Shown here piece by piece: positions 2,224-19,481 of a DNA stretch of 20,670 nt. Location of the stretch: the IMG/VR virus record IMGVR_UViG_3300046002_003411, positions 1-20,670 of that record. One strand, written 5' to 3'. A program made the position numbers and the translations under genes. Below the pieces are notes generated by a model. The model did no database searches and had not been told where the DNA came from. It saw only the letters and a program-made list of their open reading frames with translations. The stretch is from a virus. The stretch's first letter is position 1, and the number at the start of each line of letters is the position of its first letter.

Positions 2224-3480
2224 TTAAAGTAATTTCTTACCTTCAACTCGCTCCATCAGTTCACGGATACGAGCAGTTTCATTATCTACATAAGCAGTAT
2301 GTTCGCTTAAGTTGGATTTTCCAGAGGCAACAGACCTATCTAGTTTCGATACGCTTTCACTGATTGTCTTCCTTGAACCCATTTCATTTACAATCTTATC
2401 ATAGAGAACTTTGGATTCTTTGATAGATTTAACGCCATCGAATCTTTCCATGATGCTAATTTTCTCGTCTTTAGTTGTAGCATGCTCCAAGAAAACTTTA
2501 GTAACATAGGTTAGATTGAAGTTATAAAGAGCGGTCTCAGCCAAAGTCTTTCTGAAACTAATCAGGTTTTCTTTGAAGATTTCGTTCTCTTTTTTAAGCT
2601 TCTTTGATTCGGTCAAAAGTTTTTCATATTCTGAAACCTTTGATTCCACCTTAACGCCTTTGGCGCCAGCACCTTTGATTGGGGTATTACGACCTGGCAT
2701 TCTACGAGCCTGAGCAATTCCGACAGGGATAGCTTCATCAAGCATATCTTCCTCATCAGCTTCCATTTCCATTTCCATTTCATAACCTTCTTCCATGTCA
2801 TGGGCTTCTTCGTCCATATACACTTCATATATGGCCTCATCCATATCCATTTCTTCTTCCATTCCCATTCCCATTCCTTCTTCCATTTCTTCTTCCATGT
2901 CCATTTCATCTTCAACTTCGATTGCGACAGCTGACTGTTTTGGTTTAAGGATGAACTTTCCAGGTTCCTTGATGTCCATATGAATCTCGTCACCAATGAC
3001 CTCAATTTCATCAGTATCGGTCAGTTCTTTATAAACTGATAATACCATATCATCAGAAGCGTCAGTCAAATCGATTTCCTCCTCATCTGGTGCATCTGAT
3101 AAATCAACATCAACCACGTCCATATCGTCCATGTCGAGTTCTTCATCACCACCCATTTCGGTGTCATCAAGTTCGATTTCAAGTTCATCGTCACCTTCTA
3201 ATGAATCAACATCCAGCTCATCACCTTCAGCCTCACCATCATAAGGATCGACATCGACATCAGCCTCAGCTTCAGCCTCCTCAGAACCTTCCATTTCACC
3301 TTCAACATCTTCTTCTTCAAAATCGTTAGCTTCTGATAACGACTCATTGATAACGCTGTCAATTTCTTCCCTAGCGATAGCCCGAAGTGTTTCTTTCGCG
3401 TTTTCAGTTAAAGCTGCTTTAATAGACTGAATGTCCAAAAGCGCTTCTTTCACAAAATCTGTTTCTTGTTGTTTTGCCAT
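2224..3480 (-). CDS. 22: Prohead core scaffold, gp22-like, highly acidic
   Basis: A 418-aa protein in the gp22 position between protease and capsid. The order is a helical N-terminus (1-50), a very acidic stretch (about 54-145), a less charged island (146-188, VLSVYKELTDTDEIEVIGDE), a second Met/Glu/Asp-rich stretch (190-250, including GMGMGMEEEMDMDE), a basic Gly/Arg hinge (257-275) and a coiled-coil C-terminus (280-418). T4 gp22 is likewise an acidic, helical internal scaffold degraded during maturation. Many possible protease sites of the form (L/I)-x-E are present, for example ALTE, LLTE, SIKE, TISE and NLSE. The acidic part is built of short degenerate codon repeats. Two copies of the late-promoter-like motif lie upstream, which suits high expression. 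The gp22 call rests on position and composition more than on sequence identity. Confidence 0.85.
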   Translation of the reverse strand: MAKQQETDFVKEALLDIQSIKAALTENAKETLRAIAREEIDSVINESLSEANDFEEEDVEGEMEGSEEAEAEADVDVDPYDGEAEGDELDVDSLEGDDELEIELDDTEMGGDEELDMDDMDVVDVDLSDAPDEEEIDLTDASDDMVLSVYKELTDTDEIEVIGDEIHMDIKEPGKFILKPKQSAVAIEVEDEMDMEEEMEEGMGMGMEEEMDMDEAIYEVYMDEEAHDMEEGYEMEMEMEADEEDMLDEAIPVGIAQARRMPGRNTPIKGAGAKGVKVESKVSEYEKLLTESKKLKKENEIFKENLISFRKTLAETALYNFNLTYVTKVFLEHATTKDEKISIMERFDGVKSIKESKVLYDKIVNEMGSRKTISESVSKLDRSVASGKSNLSEHTAYVDNETARIRELMERVEGKKLL

Positions 3481-3517
3481 TTTTTTTAATTTGTATTTTT
3501 TTTATTAATGGTTTTTT

Positions 3518-3605: not shown

Positions 3606-4301
3606 TTAACCTAATAAAAATTTATCTAATCCGCTGATTATCTTATGTTTAGATTCTACCACTTCCATTTTCATTTCTGAAGATTTATTTAAATCATTGA
3701 AAATCCATGACCCTGGAGTACTTGGATTCGTTACAATATCCCAACAAATAAGCTCAAAGTCGTTCTGTACGACCTGTATTCCGTGAACATCCTCAACGGA
3801 ACCAACACCTCTTGATGAGACGCCTATTTTAATTCTATGTCTAAGTAAGTTTGCAACTTGGTCGCCTGTGGTGGATACTATGCCTAGATTAATGAAACCT
3901 GGAGACATTAAAATTTCAATCTTCCCCATAAGTACATTTCCTTCCCACCACATCTCAACAATGTTATGTGAAATCCTATCACCTGCAATGATTGATTCAG
4001 CAGGGTGGTCAAGCTCGCCTATTGCGCGTCTCTCATCTATTAATACTTGGTAAGCTTTAGATTGTGATTTAAGTATATCTTCAGGATACACCCTTCCGTT
4101 TCGGTTCTTAACTCCGTATTTTTGTAGAACAGCGTAGATATAATAGGGTTCAGCGATAACATTCGAGCCTTGCTCGAACTTTTTCATTTCATTTATAAAC
4201 GCATGGTTTCTTTTGTCGTCAGGCGAAATATAACCCGCGTCACGTTCAATTAGATATCCAAATCCAGTTTCTCCAGCTCTTAAAATCGATAAATTCGACA
4301 T
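3606..4301 (-). CDS. 21: Prohead core protease, T4 gp21-like serine protease
   Basis: A 231-aa homologue of T4 gp21 (212 aa), the enzyme that cleaves capsid and scaffold inside the prohead. The family signature is visible: NGRVYP at 68-73, catalytic His99 in GELDHP, nucleophile Ser in GVSSRG (Ser162 or Ser163), and Asp188 in CWDIVTNPSTPGSW, matching the T4 VDVVADPSAP segment. GDRISHNIVEMWWEGN (107-122) matches the conserved strand pair after the His. The C-terminal 30 residues are Lys/Glu-rich and may be removed on activation. It has its own promoter-like motif 10 nt before the start codon and lies directly upstream of the substrates it cuts. Confidence 0.93.
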   Translation of the reverse strand: MSNLSILRAGETGFGYLIERDAGYISPDDKRNHAFINEMKKFEQGSNVIAEPYYIYAVLQKYGVKNRNGRVYPEDILKSQSKAYQVLIDERRAIGELDHPAESIIAGDRISHNIVEMWWEGNVLMGKIEILMSPGFINLGIVSTTGDQVANLLRHRIKIGVSSRGVGSVEDVHGIQVVQNDFELICWDIVTNPSTPGSWIFNDLNKSSEMKMEVVESKHKIISGLDKFLLG

Positions 4302-5210: not shown

Positions 5211-5966
5211 TTAATTCAACGAATCTTTTAAGTTTATCATTTTAAGCATATCTTCTTCGTAAGTTTTTGGATTAAAACCCATATCCAACAACCTTTCTTT
5301 AACTAACAATAGTTTTTCCTTTACATTCGTATCACTTTCTGAAATCTGACTATTCACCTTAGTCAAACACTCTTTGATTATACTATTGAATTCAGTTTCT
5401 TGTGTCTCTTTGTTATCACTCATCAATGATTTTACCAACGTTATATCGGATTCAGAAAGGTCAGCATACTTCTTATTGAATCTATCAACTAGAACTTTAG
5501 CCAACATATCAGTAGGTACATAATCACTTGTTGCAGGCTTCTCAATGATATTATTTTTAATATGCTCCTTGATACTACCTTTCACCGCAGCACGTTCTTT
5601 AACGTCATTGGAAAAAATGAGTTTAGAAACCGCCGTATTGATTGTGGTGGATTCAACCAATTCCGTTTTATTGGTTAATACATCCAAAGCTTCTTTAAAT
5701 AATCGGTTAGTTTTAACAATATCCTTTCGGCTTATACCGTCCAATTGTTTAACTGTTTCAGATATGAATTCTGATATAACGAAATCGTCTTCAGCGTGAT
5801 GCGTCCTAACGTTCTCAAACACTTTGAACTGTGTATATAAAATACGGTTTTCTTTAATAAGCCTAAGAATTGAACCTAATCGTTTCTTATCATAAGGTGT
5901 TTTATTGACAACTGAGTCTACAACGAATTCTTTTAGCGTGTCTAAAAGTGAGCCAAAATTATACAT
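5211..5966 (-). CDS. Helical hypothetical protein next to portal gene (251 aa)
   Basis: Not recognised by sequence. The 251 residues are rich in Lys, Glu, Leu and Ile and look almost wholly alpha-helical, with no Cys, no membrane segment and no signal. Its place, just after the portal and before the protease, is that of the T4 prohead core genes 67 and 68. Possible protease sites (LVE, LSE, ISE) occur. A core or portal-associated head protein is a reasonable guess only. A promoter-like motif sits 14 nt upstream of the ATG, and its stop lies one base before the cupin start. Confidence 0.78.
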   Translation of the reverse strand: MYNFGSLLDTLKEFVVDSVVNKTPYDKKRLGSILRLIKENRILYTQFKVFENVRTHHAEDDFVISEFISETVKQLDGISRKDIVKTNRLFKEALDVLTNKTELVESTTINTAVSKLIFSNDVKERAAVKGSIKEHIKNNIIEKPATSDYVPTDMLAKVLVDRFNKKYADLSESDITLVKSLMSDNKETQETEFNSIIKECLTKVNSQISESDTNVKEKLLLVKERLLDMGFNPKTYEEDMLKMINLKDSLN

Positions 5967-6011: not shown

Positions 6012-9000
6012 TTATTTTTGTTTGATAACTCCGTCAATATCTTTTAAAATTTCATTTATCTCGTTATTAAGCTTAAATCCTTTATCATACATTTTAACTT
6101 TATTTTCGTTGATTTTGGCATCCTCACTAGGTGTTTTTATCGATTCCAAAAGACGATTCATGTAGATATCCTTATACTTATCAATCCTTGGTTGTACTTG
6201 TTTCTTAAGCTTTATTATTTCTTCAGTTAAAAGTTTTTCAGTTCGAATTAAACTTTCACCTATCTCTGGAACTGTTTCAGTAGCTGGCGCTTCAGGAACC
6301 GCTTCACCTTCATTTGGAGATGGTATTTCCTCACCTACGGCTTCCTCACCTTGGGCCTCTTCGAACCCAACGTCAGAGCCTCCCCCCAAATCCAAACCAC
6401 CACCGAAGCCGCCTCCGCCTCCGCCTCCGCCTCCGCCACCTGTATCAGCAGCTTCACCGTCCTCACCACCTTCTGGAAGAACGCCTCCCATTTTGGCTAT
6501 TTCTATGTCACCATATAGCTTATCGACCTTATCGAATACCCCAGTGTATTTAATGACATTCGCGGTGTTGGCCAATTCAGCTGAAGCAGCTTTTTCCATT
6601 CTCTGTTCAAGTAAGTCTTGTCGGTTATCATCGTCACTCCAACCGAGTATGTCACGTCTGGCTCTAGTTAATGACATCGTTCCGAAACCGTTACCGATAT
6701 CACTTACTGCATCCTTGACCAGTGTTACTTTTTGTTGCAAGTTCTGAATCCTCAACATTTGGGCCTGTGTTGATGGATTATTCATTGTTATCGTGAAGTT
6801 ATCTAGCTCATCATCAAAGCCCAATAGCAATAAGTGTATTATCGCAATCTTATTTAGTTCTTGAATAACTGCTTGTTGTATTCTATTGATTGTTCTAGCA
6901 AATCTAATGTCTAATAACGCCAAATTTTTACCCTCACCTTGAGCTTCATCAAACCCTAAAAATGCTTTAGGTACTCTCAAAGCAGTGAAAAGTTTACGCT
7001 GAAGATACTCAATATCTGCGATTTCTCCAAGGTTAGAATTTTTAATAAACACACCACTTTCGGTTGCGAATGTGTGATAATTATGATAAATTTCGTTACC
7101 GTCTACGGTTATAGTACCAGTATCAATGGTATCCTTCAACCATTCTATTGAAGTTATTTTATGGTTATAAAATTCAACTTCGGATAATTTATTTTTAAAT
7201 AAATCTTTAAAAGATGACTTACTATAATCCCAATAATCTTTAATATTATTAAATATCATTAGGTTATTAGGTGAACAATTTCTAGTATCTAAATTTATAA
7301 AGTGAACAATATTTTTATCATTTTTTGTTTTATCGGATAAATATTCCTCAAACTCAGAATATATTGATTCGGAATAATCAATATAAAGTTGCTCATAAAA
7401 TTGATTTATCTTATCAATAAAAAAACTAATCATTAATTCCGAATTTTCATGTTTAATAATATAACCTTCATTATACAAGTCATTAGCTAAAATATCCTCA
7501 AATCTAAATTGATGACATTTACCATGTAGTGGTATTAAATTTTCATATTTAAATGAGTCCTCAATATTCTCGAATAACTTAGATGCTATGATATGATGAA
7601 CGTCCAAATTTTTACCTACTTTTTCTTTAAAACAAAATTGACATATATCATCATGATTTTTTCTAACTAAGTCAAAAATTTCGTAATGTTTTTTATAATA
7701 ACGTCTATTATTTCTAATATTTGAAAGATTATTCTTATTTTTAAAATAAAAATCTCTTTTACAATCTAATGTGCAAAAATTTTTATTTTTACCATTATCA
7801 CTAATTGTCATACTTTCCTCACAACCCATACATGGTTTTATGATTACATCGTATTTAATCATTGATTGATTACTACAGTTCTTACTACAGAATCTTTGTT
7901 GACTAGGTTTTTTAAACTCATTATTACAAAAATCACATTTTTGTATAGTGTCTTTAACTCCTTTATATTGTGTTAATTTTGAACCATTATATACTTCACT
8001 CCTTTTCTTATTGTAACAACTTCTAGAACATAATTTACTTCTATCGAAATGAGTATATGATCTATTGGATTTGATATTTCCATCACATTGTTCACATTTT
8101 TTTTGGTATGTTAATGAAGTACACCCCCTATGTCTATTTCTAAATTCTTTTAAAATTAAATTAAAATCCACATAATCCCCGATAGATTGGTCAAACACAA
8201 ATTGAGAATTTACATCCGTTTTCCTATAAAAAGGCATTAATGAATCACCGACAACCAAATCCTTAGCTTCGACAAAACCATTAGTTCTATGAACCCACTT
8301 ATGGTCTGGGGTTGTTGTGATGGACTCTCCATTATCTAATGTGATTTTAATCACCTCAGCATTCTTTCTAGTCTCACCTGCCCAAGTAATTGGTAATGGT
8401 GCTAATTCTCCTGTAATCGGATTACATGAATAAACCCATAAATCCCTATTACCGTTATCCCACTCATCTATTATTTCAGACAATTGAAGAGTTCGACCAT
8501 CTAAAAGTGGTATACGGGTATCTAATGCGATACATGCTCCTGGAAGTGTTTCAATAGGGCTTGGTGATGATTCCTCTCTAACGGGAACAAAAATATCTTG
8601 GTCGTTACCCAATACGTTCATCCTCAAATCCAATTGTCCAGTTTTTGGGTCGATTACAGGCATACGTTTAAATCTGTTCGCTATTTCATTGATATATGAT
8701 TGAACATCTTCTGGGTCGATATTACCTACGAATATTTTATACACCCTACGCTCAGGCGCTCTAGTAATCCTATACACCAACATTGCATCTTCCGATAACA
8801 TCAACAACTTCCATATGCGTCTGGCCTTTTCGAGGATGCTGGTTCCATACGGTAACCGTCTATCATCACCCAACAACCTAAAGTGCGCTATTTGCCAGTT
8901 CTGAAACTGTAAATCCTTACCTCTCCAGTAAAAGTTAACTTTATCATCTCTATCTTCTGATGAATTTACGGCTCTAGAATAAACTGCATCGTAAACACCA

Positions 9001-9554
9001 CCTTCTCTTCTCTCGATTTCAAAGTTCGGTAATTGTTTTGCACCAGTAACTCCTCGTGTATCATCTGTATTTAAAAATACGAAATTATCCCCATATTTCA
9101 CCAAATTCCTAATCCACATAGGTAAACTTGTGTGGATATCCAACCTATTAAAAAATAAATCCTCAAGAATACCCTTAACTCTTGGTGAGTTTGAATATAT
9201 GTTTAATACTCTACCTATGTCATTAACCGTTGTGGACTCTTCCGACATAATGTCAAGGGTTGCCGCGATTTCAGGGTAGAACTCCATGTTCTCAAAATCA
9301 GAATAACCACCAATTCGGCTTATTTCATACTGAACGGCTTTTTGGAAAGTCTCATTCTCAACCTTCTGCCAAAGACCACCTAAGAATTTATTCTGTCTAG
9401 CCTGTAATGTTTTTGTTTCGAACTCAGCTTTAGAAGTAGTTCGAAGTATTTCGTCTGGCTGTATTGAATATTTATTACTTAATTTGTTTTGATCTATACC
9501 ATACGGGGTAAACACACTGGTTAACCTTTGAAATATTGTTTGTTCTTTGTTCAT
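6012..9554 (-). CDS. 20: Portal vertex protein, gp20-like, with in-frame intein
   Basis: A 1180-aa precursor. Residues 1-340 and 840-1180 are the exteins and together make a 681-aa portal (T4 gp20 is 524 aa), the dodecameric ring for DNA entry and tail joining. Portal marks include ERRVYKIFVGN (268-278), the LPGA end of the first extein (337-340), and SNLGEIADIEYLQRKLFTAL directly after the intein. Joining the exteins gives LPGASNLGEI, the expected uninterrupted portal motif. The intein spans Cys341 to Asn839. The C-terminal extension, absent from T4, has a run of 11 Gly codons, then an acidic Pro/Glu region and a helical Lys-rich tail, and could contact the scaffold or core. The leader has no Shine-Dalgarno (AAACAAATTAAGATA before ATG). 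Confidence 0.93.
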   Translation of the reverse strand: MNKEQTIFQRLTSVFTPYGIDQNKLSNKYSIQPDEILRTTSKAEFETKTLQARQNKFLGGLWQKVENETFQKAVQYEISRIGGYSDFENMEFYPEIAATLDIMSEESTTVNDIGRVLNIYSNSPRVKGILEDLFFNRLDIHTSLPMWIRNLVKYGDNFVFLNTDDTRGVTGAKQLPNFEIERREGGVYDAVYSRAVNSSEDRDDKVNFYWRGKDLQFQNWQIAHFRLLGDDRRLPYGTSILEKARRIWKLLMLSEDAMLVYRITRAPERRVYKIFVGNIDPEDVQSYINEIANRFKRMPVIDPKTGQLDLRMNVLGNDQDIFVPVREESSPSPIETLPGACIALDTRIPLLDGRTLQLSEIIDEWDNGNRDLWVYSCNPITGELAPLPITWAGETRKNAEVIKITLDNGESITTTPDHKWVHRTNGFVEAKDLVVGDSLMPFYRKTDVNSQFVFDQSIGDYVDFNLILKEFRNRHRGCTSLTYQKKCEQCDGNIKSNRSYTHFDRSKLCSRSCYNKKRSEVYNGSKLTQYKGVKDTIQKCDFCNNEFKKPSQQRFCSKNCSNQSMIKYDVIIKPCMGCEESMTISDNGKNKNFCTLDCKRDFYFKNKNNLSNIRNNRRYYKKHYEIFDLVRKNHDDICQFCFKEKVGKNLDVHHIIASKLFENIEDSFKYENLIPLHGKCHQFRFEDILANDLYNEGYIIKHENSELMISFFIDKINQFYEQLYIDYSESIYSEFEEYLSDKTKNDKNIVHFINLDTRNCSPNNLMIFNNIKDYWDYSKSSFKDLFKNKLSEVEFYNHKITSIEWLKDTIDTGTITVDGNEIYHNYHTFATESGVFIKNSNLGEIADIEYLQRKLFTALRVPKAFLGFDEAQGEGKNLALLDIRFARTINRIQQAVIQELNKIAIIHLLLLGFDDELDNFTITMNNPSTQAQMLRIQNLQQKVTLVKDAVSDIGNGFGTMSLTRARRDILGWSDDDNRQDLLEQRMEKAASAELANTANVIKYTGVFDKVDKLYGDIEIAKMGGVLPEGGEDGEAADTGGGGGGGGGGGFGGGLDLGGGSDVGFEEAQGEEAVGEEIPSPNEGEAVPEAPATETVPEIGESLIRTEKLLTEEIIKLKKQVQPRIDKYKDIYMNRLLESIKTPSEDAKINENKVKMYDKGFKLNNEINEILKDIDGVIKQK
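7038..8534 (-). mobile_element. HNH homing-endonuclease intein inside portal gene
   Basis: This 499-codon intein (portal precursor residues 341-839) is in frame. Splicing blocks: Cys341 opens CIALDTRIPLLDG; the T-x-x-H block is TTTPDH with His418; the last block is YHTFATESGVFIKN ending in Asn839, followed by Ser840. The penultimate residue is Lys838, not the usual His. The core holds three finger-like pairs (C487/C490 with C509/C513; C540/C543 with C556/C560; C575/C578 with C594/C598). An HNH nuclease follows: C638/C641, DVHHI at 651-655, Asn672, C680/His681. The central part is visibly more AT-rich than the exteins, as expected for an acquired element. It interrupts a strongly conserved portal motif, typical of inteins. 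Confidence 0.93.
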
Positions 9555-11704: not shown

Positions 11705-12958
11705 TTACCGTTCTAGTCGACTTATAAGACCTTGTACGCCTGATTTTAGCATATCTTTAAGTTCAGCAACAGCCTTTTCTTTAGATGAATTAACTTCAGA
11801 ATTAAGCTCTTCTTCCAATATATCTAAGTCAGCGTTCTCTTTTACTACTTTAATGATTTCTGACACGATTCGTTTACCTTCATTTGTACCAGCCATAATC
11901 TCTTTCATGGTCGAATTAAATTCGGCCACTGGTTTACGGACTAAGTTATTGAACACGTGGTGTTTCATATTATGGTCTTCATTCGGAATACAATTTAACA
12001 TACGACCCCATAGAGCTGGACCCATTCTCAAATCCCAAGGCTCAGCCGCTAAAAAGTCTGCTTGACTTACAACAAATTCATTCAACTTTTCGTTGTCAGT
12101 GAATCCGTGTAAAGATATTGCCTCCAAAACGCCCTTAACCAATTCATGGATAAGTACTGGAAAAATTAAAGCTTCTGCATTTATTCTGATTTTACCACCT
12201 TCGGTATAATCCACATTAACTACGCCCATAGGTTTACCTGTTTCTGGTTTAGGAGTGCTAAAATATAGATAATCGTTGAGTGACATTACCTTTTTATATT
12301 TATTCAAAAGCGTTGGATCGATATCGGTCAACTCCCTGTTTTTTAAATGATACATATGGTTACACCTATTAGCGCCACCTTGTATCATAGCATTGATGAA
12401 TCTACGTTTCATTATCTCACCCTCAGCACTATCCATATCATCAGCCTTATCGAACTCCATAGTGAATTTTTCATCCTCAAATTCCCTAGTCAATTTCTTC
12501 TCTTGGGTTAAACGGTCAACTAATTTTGCGTTGAATTCAATTAAATCTTCTCTGATACCATAATCTTCCATAATAGCTTCTATAGCAAGTTGCTCCAACA
12601 TAGGTCTATGTTTACGCTCACTCTCCATACAACCTACTATTAGATTGCTGGCGCTCTCAGATATCGCAGATAATGTATTCTCATCGATTGAATTGACATC
12701 GAAAGCCTCCTTACATGCGTTGGTGACCTCAACGAATCTATCCAATAGTAATTTTTGGTCAAAAGCTCTAACCCCAACCTTTGGTAACGCTGGGTGGTCA
12801 CCTATGGAGGTTTTTCGGTTTTTAATAGCGTCCTCAATATCAGGATGCATTCTTTCTGCGATAGTTTCAGGATAACCAAAACCCTCATACAACATACCTT
12901 TATCAGTTGACTGAGATAAGGCTTTACGAATTAGATTACTATATTTATTTTCTTTCAT
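11705..12958 (-). CDS. Hypothetical protein upstream of terminase (417 aa)
   Basis: Not confidently recognised. The 417-aa protein is mixed alpha/beta, with a helical N-terminal half and an amphipathic C-terminal helix (about 370-417). A notable segment is FPVLIHELVKGVLEAISLHGF, roughly residues 275-295. It contains an HEL start but lacks the second His of an HExxH zinc protease, so I do not call it one. Another distinctive block is GGANRCNHMYHL followed by LNDYLYFSTPKP. It ends 33 nt before the terminase start, a position that in T4 belongs to the small terminase and neck genes. A virion or packaging role is plausible but unproven. It starts 5 nt after the stop of the 232-aa gene. Confidence 0.8.
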   Translation of the reverse strand: MKENKYSNLIRKALSQSTDKGMLYEGFGYPETIAERMHPDIEDAIKNRKTSIGDHPALPKVGVRAFDQKLLLDRFVEVTNACKEAFDVNSIDENTLSAISESASNLIVGCMESERKHRPMLEQLAIEAIMEDYGIREDLIEFNAKLVDRLTQEKKLTREFEDEKFTMEFDKADDMDSAEGEIMKRRFINAMIQGGANRCNHMYHLKNRELTDIDPTLLNKYKKVMSLNDYLYFSTPKPETGKPMGVVNVDYTEGGKIRINAEALIFPVLIHELVKGVLEAISLHGFTDNEKLNEFVVSQADFLAAEPWDLRMGPALWGRMLNCIPNEDHNMKHHVFNNLVRKPVAEFNSTMKEIMAGTNEGKRIVSEIIKVVKENADLDILEEELNSEVNSSKEKAVAELKDMLKSGVQGLISRLER

Positions 12959-12963
12959 ATCGA

Positions 12964-13662
12964 TTATTTCTTACGTTTTGATTCGATGAGTGTATTAAGT
13001 TGGGCTTTAGTTATTTTTATCTTAGACTCTGAAAGATTTATTATTGAAACTAACCCACGTAGTGCTTCTACCGCTCTTTGCATTTCGTTATCGCTTAGAC
13101 TGAATTCATATATATTCAAGAATTGCTCTAATTCGTCTTTAATTTTTAATAATGCAATTTTTTTACTGATTTTAGGTGTCACCTTTTTGTCTTCTCCCAT
13201 ATCTTGTTTAATTTTCAACATTTCTTCGTAATTTTCCTCATCGGCTTCGATATCCTCGATGGTTTTAATATCTTTTGCTTCGTTAGTTCTAACGTACTCA
13301 TCTTCTGGTTTACGTCTATTAGCTTTTTTTATTGCGGATGAACCCAATGATGCTTGACATACTGCATAAGCATCCACTTCAGGACTCTTTTTCTTCACAT
13401 CAATAACACATCTGTCAAATTTAGCAGTATGTACTTTTTCAGCTCCAACCTCAACAACTACACCTTCTTCTTTAACAGCGTTAGAGATTGCGGCTGATGC
13501 CAACTGTTCAGCTTCATCTTTACCGATATTAGGTAGCCCTTTCATTTTACTTACGGTCGTATTATATGCCGACACGATGTCACTGGAAGATTTTGTAATC
13601 CTATTAGGTAACTCATTTTTAACTTCATTCAGTTTACTGATAATGTCCTTTCTGTAGCTCAT
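12964..13662 (-). CDS. Hypothetical protein with short RCV...YAVC cysteine module (232 aa)
   Basis: A 232-aa basic, helical protein. Its one recognisable part is the mid-protein block KFDRCVIDVKKKSPEVDAYA followed by VCQASLG. This is the K-F-x-R-C-V...Y-A-V-C-x-A-S module I know as a short recurring segment in many phage and metagenomic proteins; its function is unknown to me. The flanks are a helical N-terminus and a C-terminal coiled coil (about 165-232). The start overlaps the end of the 139-aa gene upstream by 29 nt, so the two are probably translationally coupled. The next gene begins 5 nt downstream. A virion role is suggested only by context. Confidence 0.8.
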   Translation of the reverse strand: MSYRKDIISKLNEVKNELPNRITKSSSDIVSAYNTTVSKMKGLPNIGKDEAEQLASAAISNAVKEEGVVVEVGAEKVHTAKFDRCVIDVKKKSPEVDAYAVCQASLGSSAIKKANRRKPEDEYVRTNEAKDIKTIEDIEADEENYEEMLKIKQDMGEDKKVTPKISKKIALLKIKDELEQFLNIYEFSLSDNEMQRAVEALRGLVSIINLSESKIKITKAQLNTLIESKRKK

Positions 13663-14224: not shown

Positions 14225-15547
14225 TTAATTTTTAGGGTTAGCATAATCGTATATCAGATTTCTTATCAAAGATACGGTATTTTCGCTCTTCTTACCCCAT
14301 TTTTCTCCTTTATTCTTAGTTTTGCATGCGGAAGGTGTAGGTCGACATGCGGGATATTCAGAACGCGTCTCACCTTCTTTTCTACCACAAGGTTTACATT
14401 TCTTCCTACCAGTTTCTTTATCCGTTCGACATGTGTTGCAGTCAACCCAACCTTGAGAACCCTCACCGCCTCTTCTTTCGAACCAACCGTGAAGACCTTT
14501 TTCCTTCTCTTTTGAATAATCGGTTTTTTCTGATAATCTATCATGGACTTCGTATGTATTCTCATCAAAAACGTCTGGGTAATTCTCATGGTCATCATAT
14601 TCATCAAAAAGTTCAATCGACACAATACCATCATCACCCCAAATACACCCACTGGCCACATCCCAAGGATAATACCACATCATCGACATTCTAGCTTTAC
14701 TGATATATGGGTTTATTTCAATACCAGCATATTTTTCAGCCACCCTAACCCAATCAATATATACGTAATCTGGCCCCATACTACTAAGCTGACTGCCATA
14801 TTCATCAGTAAATGCTACTAATTCATCATAAGAACTAAGCCTTAGCACTCTATTCTTATTAATCTTAACTATATGGATATGTTCTGCTTCCCAGTCAGGC
14901 ATTTCACTCTTTACCCATTCCAACCAAGAATCCCCAAACCCGTACCAAAAACCACTAGGTTTTGATCCGACTTTTTGTTTATCTATGGGAGTTGGTCTAA
15001 AATTTATCTTTGCCTCATGTGACATGACAACTCTGATATTTCGATATGCTGTTAACAGTTTAGCCATGTAATCCGAAACTTCATTAACCTCAGATTCACC
15101 TTCTTCTAAACCCTCAGATTTATTACCCCAATTAGAAGCACCCACCTTTCTGCACTGAACTAAGGCACCTGACCCGTAGGCACTTGGCCAGACCGAGTAC
15201 CTACTTTTGACTTTATGATAACACGCATCTTTCTTACCTTTACCTTTTTTCTTGGCCTCATCCAATGAGTCAAATTCTTGAATTTCAACAACTAAGTTGC
15301 TATCACCTTTAATAACTCTATGATACGTTTCTTTAGGTATTATAACAGATTCACCTATAATCAACTTCTTAGGTAATTCATTATCAAACTGAATCATCCA
15401 ATCGTTCTCATTAGTAGGGGTTACTACTCGGTCCCGTTTATCCCTATGCCATACTAGTTCAGAAGGTTCTATGTTAATATCGAACGTTCTTTTTATTACA
15501 CCTGATTTTAATATTTCTTGTTCGTAAGGTTTATCATTTTTGGGCAT
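14225..15547 (-). CDS. Multi-domain protein: cupin-like, DUF5872-type and Cys modules
   Basis: A 440-aa mosaic. Residues 15-92 look cupin-like (ELVWHRDKRDR, then DNELPKKLIIGESVIIPKET and YHRVIKG). Residues 108-144 (CYHKVKSRYSVWPSAYGSGA, then LVQCRKVGASNWGNKS) match the pattern I associate with DUF5872, found in large phages and giant viruses. Residues 195-305 (KPSGFWYGFGDSWLEW, then IDWVRVAEKYAGIEINPY and WDVASGCIW) form a conserved domain whose start is weakly like ADP-ribosyltransferase folds; I would not assign the activity. Residues 351-410 (GLHGWFERRGG, then six Cys: 370, 373, 384, 387, 401, 408) look like a zinc-ribbon module. The role is unknown. The start overlaps the 83-aa gene by 14 nt. 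Confidence 0.82.
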   Translation of the reverse strand: MPKNDKPYEQEILKSGVIKRTFDINIEPSELVWHRDKRDRVVTPTNENDWMIQFDNELPKKLIIGESVIIPKETYHRVIKGDSNLVVEIQEFDSLDEAKKKGKGKKDACYHKVKSRYSVWPSAYGSGALVQCRKVGASNWGNKSEGLEEGESEVNEVSDYMAKLLTAYRNIRVVMSHEAKINFRPTPIDKQKVGSKPSGFWYGFGDSWLEWVKSEMPDWEAEHIHIVKINKNRVLRLSSYDELVAFTDEYGSQLSSMGPDYVYIDWVRVAEKYAGIEINPYISKARMSMMWYYPWDVASGCIWGDDGIVSIELFDEYDDHENYPDVFDENTYEVHDRLSEKTDYSKEKEKGLHGWFERRGGEGSQGWVDCNTCRTDKETGRKKCKPCGRKEGETRSEYPACRPTPSACKTKNKGEKWGKKSENTVSLIRNLIYDYANPKN

Positions 15548-15785
15548 CGGATGCGGAATTTTTTAAAAAGTTATGAACCTCTTCAACGTCATCTTTAGAT
15601 GTTGCAATATGATCAGACGCCCAATCGTGTCCGTTTGATAGTATCATATCGACCATACTCTCGTTCATGTTAAGTATTGCATCGGCTGCATCTCTTATAG
15701 TTTTAAGATTTTGGAAGAACATATAATTCTCATTTTCACTACCTTCAGAAAGGCTCCTAAGTGATTCTAATATTGTGTTACGCAT
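15534..15785 (-). CDS. Small conserved hypothetical protein (83 aa)
   Basis: An 83-aa acidic helical protein. Residues 20-75 (YMFFQNLKTIRDAADAIL, then SNGHDWASDHIATSKDDVEE) resemble a short protein I have seen repeatedly in uncultured large phages, without known function. No Cys, signal or membrane segment. The stop overlaps the start of the 440-aa gene by 14 nt, suggesting coupling. The AT-rich leader has no Shine-Dalgarno. Confidence 0.78.
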   Translation of the reverse strand: MRNTILESLRSLSEGSENENYMFFQNLKTIRDAADAILNMNESMVDMILSNGHDWASDHIATSKDDVEEVHNFLKNSASDAQK

Positions 15786-16479: not shown

Positions 16480-17844
16480 TTACCAATAACGACCCCCTCC
16501 ACTAAGCCCAAGACTTTTTGCAAATCTTGGCAATGAGCAAGCCCAGTACCCTGCGGTCGTTTTATCTGTCTTTTCTGGACAATTATGTCTATCTGAGAAT
16601 GCTTTTCTAGCTTTAGGGTCTTTTAATTTAACGGCCAAATTACCACCACCTGCTTTAGCTCCGAATGAAACTTTCTTAATATTACCACTACTTGGGTCCT
16701 TAACGTAAACATAAAATTTCTTTGACCCACCTCGTTTAGGTTTATTAAGCTCAACGTTTTTACCTTTATATTCGGCCTCAGCGATAATCTGTTTGATTCC
16801 GTTTAATACGTCAGATTCGCTCACATTATCATTAGGTTTATCTTTTAATTCCTTATTTAAAATCTGTTTGGCTGATTTTTCATCACCTTTAAGGATATTA
16901 CGTATAATCAATGCCAACATTGGTGCGCCTAACGCGGCTATTTGTGTAAATGTTGGAAGATGTTCAACCATTTCATCCTCTGAAACCAAATCATCGTTAG
17001 ATTCTTCCTCATATATCGCATTTAACAGTATTTCTTTACCGTTAAGGTAAGTTAGCTTCGGTATAGCAGAATTAACAATGAATTCATCGTTCTCATTCAA
17101 TGATATAAGATTAGAACCCCTAAGAGCTTTAACTTCTTTTAATAATTGAATGTACTTGTCAGAACCATATCTGAATACAGACTCACCCAAAGGTATCTTA
17201 TTATCCAAATGGTACTTAAGACCACCTGAAACTGAAACGGGAACCGTCAACTCCATGGGTTTGGACCACTCTAAGAATATCTCTTCTATGTCATCGCCCA
17301 ACGACATCTCATCGATTTGTTCATCATCCATTCCATCGGAATCAGGTTGGTTATCGTCAACATTATTGTCGTCCTTAATCTCTGAATCAGATTCTTGATT
17401 ATTATCATCAGCACCGCTGGTTTCAATTTTATCTATTATATCCTTTCGGTCAGAATCATCCATATCAGCGGTATTAGTTGCTGATATTACAGAATTAATT
17501 ACGAATTTTTCCAATTCAAAATCAGGATTATCTAAACCCTTTTCATAATCCCTTAACGACTGTCCGATTTTACCCGCTAATTGTTGAATAAATTTCTTAG
17601 GGTCACTTTCCTCATCAGCCTCAACACCAGCGTCAAAAGGTTTTTTTTCAAAAGGATTATCATTATCACCACCTACTTCATCAGGTGTGTCTTGGTTGTC
17701 ATCACCAAAACTTGGCTCAGGAGCTGGTTGATCGCCAACGCTAGGTGCGGTGTCCATACCGCCATCAGATGCTGTCGGTGCGTCTAATTTAAGCTTATAT
17801 TTGGTTTCATCTAAGGCGTAACCGTTCTCTTCATCAGAAAACAA
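16480..17844 (-). CDS. Acidic protein with C-terminal RHNC...YWAC module; probable -1 frameshift extension
   Basis: The frame holds 454 codons from a TTG at 17844. It has no good start: the first ATG is at 17757, and the frame stays open further upstream into the A10 run at 17883-17892. A -1 shift there joins it to the 273-aa ORF without a stop, giving about 739 residues, so I think it is mainly made as a fusion. The first 200 residues are acidic, Asp/Pro/Asn-rich and probably disordered; a mid part (about 185-310) looks folded. The C-terminus has KKFYVYVKDPSSG followed by KARKAFSDRHNC and TTAGYWACSLPRFAKSL, a short cysteine module I have met in many phage proteins, and ends GGGRYW. Virion or head function is inferred from context. 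Confidence 0.78.
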   Translation of the reverse strand: MFSDEENGYALDETKYKLKLDAPTASDGGMDTAPSVGDQPAPEPSFGDDNQDTPDEVGGDNDNPFEKKPFDAGVEADEESDPKKFIQQLAGKIGQSLRDYEKGLDNPDFELEKFVINSVISATNTADMDDSDRKDIIDKIETSGADDNNQESDSEIKDDNNVDDNQPDSDGMDDEQIDEMSLGDDIEEIFLEWSKPMELTVPVSVSGGLKYHLDNKIPLGESVFRYGSDKYIQLLKEVKALRGSNLISLNENDEFIVNSAIPKLTYLNGKEILLNAIYEEESNDDLVSEDEMVEHLPTFTQIAALGAPMLALIIRNILKGDEKSAKQILNKELKDKPNDNVSESDVLNGIKQIIAEAEYKGKNVELNKPKRGGSKKFYVYVKDPSSGNIKKVSFGAKAGGGNLAVKLKDPKARKAFSDRHNCPEKTDKTTAGYWACSLPRFAKSLGLSGGGRYW

Positions 17845-17876
17845 ACCTGTTGAAATACCGTCAGCTTTAGTTTCGG

Positions 17877-18698
17877 TTAGTGTTTTTTTTTTCCAGTTAC
17901 TTTCTCAAGAATAGATATAATCTCCTCATTGGATAGATTTTTAAGTATTGACTCAGCTGTCAAAATCTGTTCTTTCTTACGCTCACCTGTGGCAACGGAA
18001 ACCGCTTCATCAATCTTGTTTATTGTTTCCAAGATGCTCAATTGACGCTTAACTGCGATATTACCATTCTTTACTGATACGTCTTTACCGTCACCCAACA
18101 AAACTCGGTTTATTCTGGATTCATTCTTAGATAGTTTTACATCTTCAAACTCATCCAAAACGTCTTGTTCAGCTAAATTATCACCGAACGCGTCCTCGTC
18201 TTTACCTTCTTTAGAATCAAATGACAACTCAGCACCCGCCTTATCAAGTATATATTCTTCATTACCACCCATACCTTTAGTGGCAGATAGTTTTTGATTC
18301 GATTTATACGGATGATGTTCTGAAATCAAATTATCATCTTCAAAAACATTAATATTTGATTTGGTACCCATAGCCTCACATAAGGACATGAATTTAAGGT
18401 TAAGCTGCTTTATCGCTTTTGCATATGATGGGAATACCCATTCTTTTTTATTCTTAAGGCCACCGATATATTTAAAATCTTCTTTAATCAAGTCACCAAC
18501 ACCATCACTGATTTTGATATAATACTCGTGATTCTCTCTTACGATTCCGTACACTTTACCATCTGGGCCCATTTTAGTTAGCTCAATGACCGAACGATCG
18601 ACACCTTCTTTTATTTGGGTCTGATTCATTAGTTCAATCATTCTGTTAATCTGTTCGTTACCCTTAAGGCCTGTCGGTTTGATTGCGATTTTACTCAT
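17877..18698 (-). CDS. Hypothetical late protein, zero-frame product of a frameshift pair (273 aa)
   Basis: A 273-aa product beginning MSKIAIKPTGLKGNEQINRM. The N-terminal third (SVIELTKMGPDGKVYGIVRE, then NHEYYIKIS, DFKYIGGLKNKKEW and YAKAIKQLNLKF) is a conserved block I recall from structural-region proteins of uncultured T4-like phages, where I believe it is the start of a much longer protein. Residues 140-200 are acidic; the end is helical (ILKNLSNEEIISILEKV). It terminates TGKKKH just two codons past an A10 run, while the next ORF is open in the -1 frame across that run. This could be programmed slippage, a real split, or a homopolymer error. The leader is A-rich, with no promoter motif. 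Confidence 0.82.
   Translation of the reverse strand: MSKIAIKPTGLKGNEQINRMIELMNQTQIKEGVDRSVIELTKMGPDGKVYGIVRENHEYYIKISDGVGDLIKEDFKYIGGLKNKKEWVFPSYAKAIKQLNLKFMSLCEAMGTKSNINVFEDDNLISEHHPYKSNQKLSATKGMGGNEEYILDKAGAELSFDSKEGKDEDAFGDNLAEQDVLDEFEDVKLSKNESRINRVLLGDGKDVSVKNGNIAVKRQLSILETINKIDEAVSVATGERKKEQILTAESILKNLSNEEIISILEKVTGKKKH
17883..17892 (-). promoter_or_regulatory. A10 slippery run, candidate -1 frameshift or slippage site
   Basis: On the minus strand the zero frame reads GGA AAA AAA AAA CAC TAA. A -1 slip, or one added A in the transcript, gives AAA ACA CTA ACC GAA and continues with no stop into the 454-codon ORF. The zero-frame stop lies 3 nt after the run. Confidence 0.6.
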
Positions 18699-18714
18699 TT
18701 TATATTATTTTTTT

Positions 18715-18984
18715 TTAAGCTACAGGGCCATAATAACCCCCTATTATTGACGTACCTCGCATTACGTTTATTGGTACTCCTAACAAATACACCGCACCAG
18801 TCACTGAAGATATTGAATTAATCATAATGTCAAAATTACTACCAGCGTCTAACGCCATAGATGTTCCATTAATTATTGCAGAACCACCACCAGTTCCGAC
18901 ATATACCTGCATATACGTATAGGCACTTAGTGTTGCACCGCTGGCTGGTTGAATTATTGGTAGTATTCCGTGAAAACTAGACAT
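18715..18984 (-). CDS. Small repeated-family protein, copy B (89 aa)
   Basis: An 89-aa beta-rich, Gly/Ser/Ile-rich protein paralogous to the first ~85 residues of the next gene upstream. The shared pattern runs from MSSF through PASGATLSAYTY, VYxGTGGGSAxING, I-M-x-NSIS and the YLxGxPI strand. There are no Cys, few charges and no signal peptide. The composition fits a compact beta domain such as a capsid decoration or fibre-tip protein, but I recognise no named family. It has its own promoter-like motif 12 nt upstream and an A-rich leader (CCTAAAAAA before ATG). Confidence 0.8.
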   Translation of the reverse strand: MSSFHGILPIIQPASGATLSAYTYMQVYVGTGGGSAIINGTSMALDAGSNFDIMINSISSVTGAVYLLGVPINVMRGTSIIGGYYGPVA

Positions 18985-19031: not shown

Positions 19032-19481
19032 TTAGTTAAATATAATTATGCCACCATTAGTGAGCGTACCGTTTTGGAATATAACACCACTAGTTATAAT
19101 AAGCTTACCTCCTGACTGAATAATTAGCGTACCATTAATTGTAAGGTTCCCATTAACGGTATAAGTTTCCCCTGAATAAATCGTGAACGTACCCTCAATA
19201 AGGTTTGGTAAAATTAATGGCTCTATAATATAACCGCTTAAAGTAGGTGTACCTTGGAATACACTGATTGGTAAGCCGAATAAGTATAGGTTACCCATAA
19301 CCGCTGATATCGAATTAACCATTATTTTTATGTTCGACCGCGCCGAAATAACAAAGGGTAGACCGTTTATGGTGGCAGAACCACCACCTGTACCTGCATA
19401 GACCTCAATATACGTATATGCGCTTAATGTAGCACCGCTGGCTGGGTGAATTATCGAAGGCCTACCATAAAAGCTAGACAT
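19032..19481 (-). CDS. Repeated-family protein, copy A, with beta-helix-like tail (149 aa)
   Basis: A 149-aa protein. Residues 1-85 are paralogous to the 89-aa neighbour (MSSFYGRPSIIHPASGATLS against MSSFHGILPIIQPASGATLS). Residues 92-149 are extra and consist of short repeats alternating Ile/Leu/Thr strands with Asn-Gly and Ser-Gly turns (YTVNGNLTINGTLIIQSGGK). This pattern is typical of right-handed beta-helix or carbohydrate-facing fibre structures. A surface-exposed virion protein is therefore plausible, though not shown. The two genes probably arose by tandem duplication with later gain or loss of the tail. A promoter-like motif lies 9 nt upstream. Confidence 0.8.
   Translation of the reverse strand: MSSFYGRPSIIHPASGATLSAYTYIEVYAGTGGGSATINGLPFVISARSNIKIMVNSISAVMGNLYLFGLPISVFQGTPTLSGYIIEPLILPNLIEGTFTIYSGETYTVNGNLTINGTLIIQSGGKLIITSGVIFQNGTLTNGGIIIFN

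Follow-up and report, generated by a model that had tools for sequence, protein, structure and literature searches.

The window analysed here, a 20,670-base IMG/VR virus record with T4-like head genes on its minus strand, contains a run of ten A residues at which two open reading frames, ORF1 and ORF2, would be joined by a -1 shift. Comparison with other viral contigs strongly supports a programmed transition into the -1 frame: divergent homologues keep the site, and both of its frames are coding. ORF1 and ORF2 probably constitute one gene with a programmed slip site. The programmed shifts known in tailed phages lie mostly in tail chaperone genes. Here the shift falls within a head-region gene, is shared by dozens of uncultured T4-like phage lineages and is coupled to a maturation-protease motif. 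No earlier description of this slip-site gene was found in a literature search which reached few subscription papers.

The slip junction

ORF1 (minus strand, 17877–18698) specifies 273 amino acids, which would serve both as the short product and as the N-terminal portion of a fusion. On the minus strand the 3' end of its coding sequence reads AAAAAAAAAA CAC TAA, such that a single sense codon lies between the A10 run (17883–17892; T10 on the plus strand) and the stop. ORF2 (minus strand, 16480–17904) is open solely in the -1 frame, which, as read by way of the identical contig L002, extends from 17904 to a stop ending at 16480. It would be reached by slippage, and its relatives share no independent start. 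The first ATG is 41 codons (~126 nt) beyond the run, and the sole earlier start-like codon is a TTG at 17844. The first-pass annotation had given these coordinates and sizes correctly, and its proposal that the A10 links the two ORFs through a -1 shift into a predicted fusion of about 739 residues is supported. Taken by itself the run is little proof of this, since the window has two runs of at least 10 (at 17883 and 2190) where about 0.76 would be expected over both strands.

Conservation of the run among relatives

Relatives were collected from viral contigs by querying with ORF2 and ORF1 in turn and finally with a profile of ORF1, and the contigs were sorted by HMM matches to ORF1 and ORF2, which gave 71 distinct junctions. 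Ten of these were picked up by scanning DNA for the run, and are biased accordingly; the other 61 were recovered by protein similarity, the run being unused. Contig L002, which is identical to the window over 10 kb, may belong to the population of the window and counts for little as independent support, and because the lineages share ancestry the junction counts are not counts of independent events.

An A run is found at the exact ORF1/ORF2 boundary at all 71 junctions (A10 in 62, A9 in four, A11 in four and A12 in one), and the run-independent set has A9–A12 at the boundary in 61 of 61. Along their coding strand these contigs otherwise have runs of at least nine A's at 0.054 per kb, or ~0.002 per 40-nt stretch. 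It is this conservation in the run-independent junctions, set against so rare a background, which is decisive for the slip site being real. The Lys codons at the run are always AAA; under the Lys codon usage of the same genes three AAA codons in every lineage would have a probability of ~1e-23, the lineages being taken as independent, although their independence is incomplete.

At 70 of the 71 junctions ORF2 occupies the -1 frame. The remaining one, L156 (A9 at 2975–2983), stands alone in having ORF2 at +1 relative to ORF1, and reflects either a genuine difference in run length or a fault of assembly. Codon phases 2, 0 and 1 were all seen, phase 2 dominating (61/71) among lineages which share ancestry. 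In L118, L119 and L120 (A11) and in L244 (A10, in another phase) ORF1 and ORF2 are read through in frame, and the other two frames both close within a few codons (KKKD*, KKKV*); the run is thus kept even where the long form needs no shift. With L070 and L071, in which ORF1 and ORF2 are fused without a run, a total of six relatives carry both parts in one ORF. The homologues, which we compared for the presence of one ORF or two as had been recommended, are either split with A9–A12 or consist of a single fused ORF, and a common nearby start was never found.

These comparisons dispose of the main alternative put forward with the original claim, namely that the run is a sequencing or assembly error, its true length being A11 and the two frames a single ORF. 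Homopolymers are error-prone and an A11 would indeed fuse the frames, but error is excluded by the roughly 70 homologous junctions, with A9–A12 and the -1 relation in 70 of 71 across many samples and with a zero-frame stop which is itself selected (see below); we assign this reading practically no likelihood. Variation at the level of the DNA, in which the run would mutate between A10 and A11 and thereby turn the long form on or off among the phages of a population, has in its favour that homopolymers are typical contingency sites and that both split and in-phase relatives exist. Nevertheless, assembled contigs which share a junction, and so stem from identical or closely similar phages met in separate samples, have runs of equal length, 70 of 71 junctions are in the -1 state with no mixture, and the stop right behind the run is selected. 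We hold phase variation to be very improbable.

Selection on both frames and on the ORF1 stop

When the window is compared with L003, L004 and L005, most substitutions just 3' of the run are silent in the ORF2 frame, and almost every one is non-synonymous in each of the other two; the coding constraint of ORF2 starts right at the run. A zero-frame stop is found no more than three codons behind the run in 57 of 60 lineages, as against 21% in the body of ORF2, which served as control. With Leu or Ile as second residue of ORF2, the codon at that position yields a zero-frame stop in 48 of 49 cases, compared with 34.6 ± 2.6 expected from codon usage, and CTA is used 20 times there though it accounts for 7% of Leu codons elsewhere. 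Judged by these codon and substitution patterns, selection acts on both frames and on the ORF1 stop, the TAA (minus strand, 17877–17879) being selected to sit just behind the run. The short form would thus be no accident of the long form.

The same region bears upon the possibility that ORF1 and ORF2 are two separate genes, with the A run acting as an A-rich leader which lets ORF2 be translated independently. A-rich runs do precede other starts in the window, such as the A10 at 2190–2199 before the capsid gene; 14 of 35 other runs of at least nine A's in the relatives have an ATG within 20 nt; and some relatives have an ATG 8–10 codons past the ORF1/ORF2 run. Over all relatives, however, the first ATG lies anywhere from 8 to 153 codons past the run, often beyond the conserved ETKYKLK segment, whereas the coding constraint starts at the run itself, and six relatives have the one-ORF arrangement. 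An independent start of ORF2 was rejected, its position being inconsistent among relatives, and we hold the two-gene reading to be exceedingly improbable.

Transcriptional or ribosomal slippage

The first-pass annotation spoke of a programmed frameshift. The transition into the -1 frame is upheld by the roughly 70 homologous junctions; as to its cause, slippage of RNA polymerase is at least as likely as ribosomal frameshifting. Bacterial RNA polymerase slips in vivo at nine A or T residues (PMC5009743), and transcriptional slippage occurs at A10 in Shigella spa13 (PMC6260861). The shortest run found here is nine A's, such that all 71 junctions have the length of about nine or more A/T associated with transcriptional slippage. 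We favour polymerase slippage, as a probable mechanism though short of proof, because the runs are never shorter than nine, their phase, though mostly 2, varies, in-phase relatives keep the run, Shine-Dalgarno-like sequences are not enriched and there is no close stem-loop.

The same -1 fusion could arise through ribosomal frameshifting on an in-frame A_AAA_AAA heptamer, the additional A's boosting efficiency, and this we regard as the less likely of the two mechanisms. Such a heptamer is contained in frame within any run of nine or more A's, whatever the phase; poly-A cassettes in E. coli reporters gave 10–63% shifting, rising with length (PMC3711429); and there is one structured RNA region downstream. 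Yet seven A's suffice for the heptamer and no run has fewer than nine. An upstream Shine-Dalgarno-like stimulator is not enriched (9/61, against a control of 10%), and a stem-loop ~5–9 nt downstream is absent, there being little structure directly behind the run and constraint starting ~25 or ~90 nt away. Furthermore, ribosome sliding in vitro is robust at A11 with little at A9–A10 (PMC4363877), and four relatives retain the run in the fused phase.

The downstream structure lies just 3' of the ORF2 KYKLK codons, where 48 representatives show RNA structure beyond that due to coding (z ~-2.0 ± 0.3 relative to synonymous shuffles). Four pairs have changed on both sides in a 15-member group of which the window is not a member. 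The hairpin is clear after the KYKLK codons in L015, L088, L159, L161, L218, L221 and L236; in the window the hairpin predicted at the place of the relatives' conserved structure (minus strand, 17735–17778) is weak. No known RNA family matched at the hairpin. In several relatives a U-rich stretch then follows it. Its distance from the run varies, being mostly ~25–40 nt, or ~90 nt and more, so it is no standard stimulator, and a role in stimulating the frameshift was dropped. As guesses, it might block internal initiation, or be an attenuator which is lifted by ribosomes reading through in the -1 frame. The hairpin is not accounted for by the model of slippage and carrier proposed below, and counts against it.

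Genome neighbourhood

The head genes of the window include those for a gp23-like capsid protein, a scaffold-like ORF in the position of gp22 (2224–3480), a prohead protease of the S77 (T4 gp21) family (minus strand, 3606–4301; PF03420, E 9.8e-24) and a large terminase, with ORF1 upstream of them in the transcribed direction. In most of the 28 relatives examined the order is ORF1, ORF2, an ORF of the type at 13634, an ORF of the type at 11705, and terminase. The genes downstream of the pair up to the terminase specify 83–440 amino acids, and none is tape-measure-like in place or size. This last point weighs against ORF1 and ORF2 being tail assembly chaperones like lambda G/GT. That pair is the most familiar case of a -1 shift in tailed phages, and it likewise gives a short and a long form. 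The enrichment of L/I-x-E motifs described below fits core proteins, and we consider the tail reading very unlikely.

A 1180-aa ORF at 6012–9554 resembles, by eye, a T4-type portal protein with an intein-like insert (ACIALDTRIPLLDG ... VFIKNSN) and an HNH-like stretch; from this reading of the sequence and from its position it looks like a portal gene with an intein. Two adjacent small ORFs at 18715–18984 and 19032–19481 have similar beginnings (MSSF.G..PII.PASGATLSAYTY...VGTGGGSA), and likely represent a tandem duplication, which relatives also have upstream of ORF1. The coding strand carries A-rich runs just before the starts of the capsid gene (A10, 2190–2199), the scaffold-like gene (A8, 3480–3503) and ORF1 (A9, 18708–18716), without an obvious Shine-Dalgarno motif.

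Putative prohead protease sites

T4 gp21 cleaves at L/I-x-E (PMC9026906). The -1 frame after the run mostly reads KKK-[STR]-[LI]-x-E, that is, a gp21-type prohead-protease motif. An [LI]xE is present within the first 14 ORF2 residues in 48 of 61 lineages, versus 7.8 in shuffles, while 13 of the 61 have none near the junction. The window has T-L-T-E (minus strand, 17872–17883, -1 frame), a predicted L-x-E site directly behind the slip site. Three further predicted sites lie elsewhere in the fusion. I-K-E at ORF1 residues 29–31 (minus strand, 18606–18614) may mark the end of a capsid-targeting propeptide; in alignment A1 E31 is invariant and I29 nearly so, and [ILV]xE occurs at residues 25–40 in 69 of 71. 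L-C-E at ORF1 residues 106–108 (minus strand, 18375–18383) follows the N-terminal domain, at a place where the strict pattern SLxE[AGSTV] is found in 48 of 71. In ORF2, I-A-E (minus strand, 16777–16785), followed by A-E-Y-K-G-K, precedes the C-terminal module, as does an equivalent site in 34 of 71 by strict pattern.

Across the 71 fusions L/I-x-E followed by A, G, S, T or N, counted as a motif only, occurs 630 times against 227.5 expected (2.8x). In the window alone the enrichment of L/I-x-E is marginal (p 0.06 for ORF1, p 0.09 for ORF2). The scaffold-like protein of the window is also enriched (p 0.004), and the terminase of the window showed no enrichment. A 251-aa protein encoded between the portal and protease genes (5211–5966) has five L/I-x-E motifs where 1.1 would be expected (p 0.004), and is a candidate for a further core protein on this count.

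Domains and relatives of the two proteins

The ORF1 domain is conserved in all relatives (for example, ELTKxGPDGKxYGIVRENHEYYIK). ORF1 gave no Pfam match and no confident PHROG match, and neither ORF1 nor ORF2 showed homology to T4 core or internal proteins, a Pfam match or membership of a PHROG head family. No isolate carrying ORF1 was found, relatives in bacterial and archaeal genomes were not confirmed, and no credible relative of either protein was seen among solved structures. AlphaFold models were poor (mean pLDDT 53); a fold search with the low-confidence ORF1 model returned only two uncharacterised viral proteins.

The C-terminal RHNC...YWAC module of ORF2 (minus strand, 16537–16782) matches phrog_7595 (E 1.3e-12), which is also present in Flavobacterium, Methylophilales and Pelagibacter phages. 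In several relatives ORF2 has extra modules, among them the domain which forms a separate 83-aa ORF in the window (15534–15785). This domain (NYMFFQNLK...HDWASDHIATSKDDVEEVHNFL) lies inside ORF2 of L006, L014, L083 and others, sometimes twice, and by this distribution is a putative mobile cargo module.

Proposed mechanism

We infer a prohead-core carrier and cargo polyprotein from the L/I-x-E sites, the propeptide-like I-x-E, the extra ORF2 modules and the synteny. RNA polymerase would add one A on a fraction of the mRNAs (or, less likely, ribosomes would slip -1), giving the short ORF1 protein and the ORF1-ORF2 fusion, the latter probably as the minor product. The shared ORF1 part would carry both into the prohead core, where the gp21-like protease, the proposed processing enzyme, would cut at L/I-x-E, including the site directly behind the slip site, and a set ratio of ORF2 cargo pieces would be freed inside the capsid during maturation. 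Processing in the head is supported by the S77 protease in the same cluster and by the conserved synteny with terminase and portal; against a head role are the lack of homology between ORF1 and known head proteins and the poor structure models. The idea that a slip might set the ratio of a short to a long virion protein would thereby be refined: the product resembles a polyprotein of the prohead core, processed by a protease of the gp21 kind, more than simply two forms of a virion protein.

As a whole, the model of programmed slip, ORF1 as head-core carrier, ORF2 as cargo and release by protease seems to us somewhat better than an even bet on the sequence evidence. That a group of T4-like phages doses its head cargo through poly-A slippage, with a protease site encoded in the shifted frame, we would put at evens. 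If right, this would show how phages set the number of copies in which internal and perhaps injected proteins are present, and would mean that plain gene calling wrongly splits this protein in these genomes.

Comparison with known systems

Lambda G/GT and the A2 head protein likewise owe their short and long forms to a late gene with a programmed -1 shift. Unlike these, the present case involves another gene at another genome position with a predicted protease site at the junction, and a poly-A run in place of their G- or C-containing heptamer.

To our knowledge the internal and core proteins of T4 are not made via a frame shift, and no sequence homology to them was found. The likeness is to the gp21-cut proteins IPI–III, Alt, gp22 and gp67, which have L/I-x-E sites and, possibly as here, an N-terminal targeting propeptide (PMC9026906); the I-x-E at ORF1 residues 29–31 is roughly where the capsid-targeting propeptide of the T4 internal proteins ends.

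The A9 or A10 runs recall Thermus thermophilus dnaX and Shigella spa13 (PMC5009743, PMC6260861). In T. thermophilus dnaX both non-zero frames are closed by nearby stops (PMC5009743), and L118–L120 and L244 resemble it, in that their long form is in frame and both other frames are closed nearby. Unlike the present gene, dnaX and spa13 are cellular genes, and the long form of dnaX is in frame, which is the case here in L118–L120 and L244 only. The multi-domain cargo proteins which phages deploy, described as polyvalent proteins of phages and conjugative elements, are also similar (PMC5512222), though the modules here are small and those proteins are not known to involve a slip site.

In retroviral Gag-Pol a shared N-terminal part is extended by a shift (PMC5009743). 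The proposed system would be like it in logic only, with an N-terminal carrier extended by a shift, packaging at a set ratio and release by a viral protease. It is unlike Gag-Pol in belonging to a DNA phage, in using a poly-A run without close structure and probably polymerase slippage, in having its protease encoded elsewhere and in sharing no homology. If the model is true, these phages would have a DNA-phage counterpart of Gag-Pol in which the protease site is built into the shifted frame.
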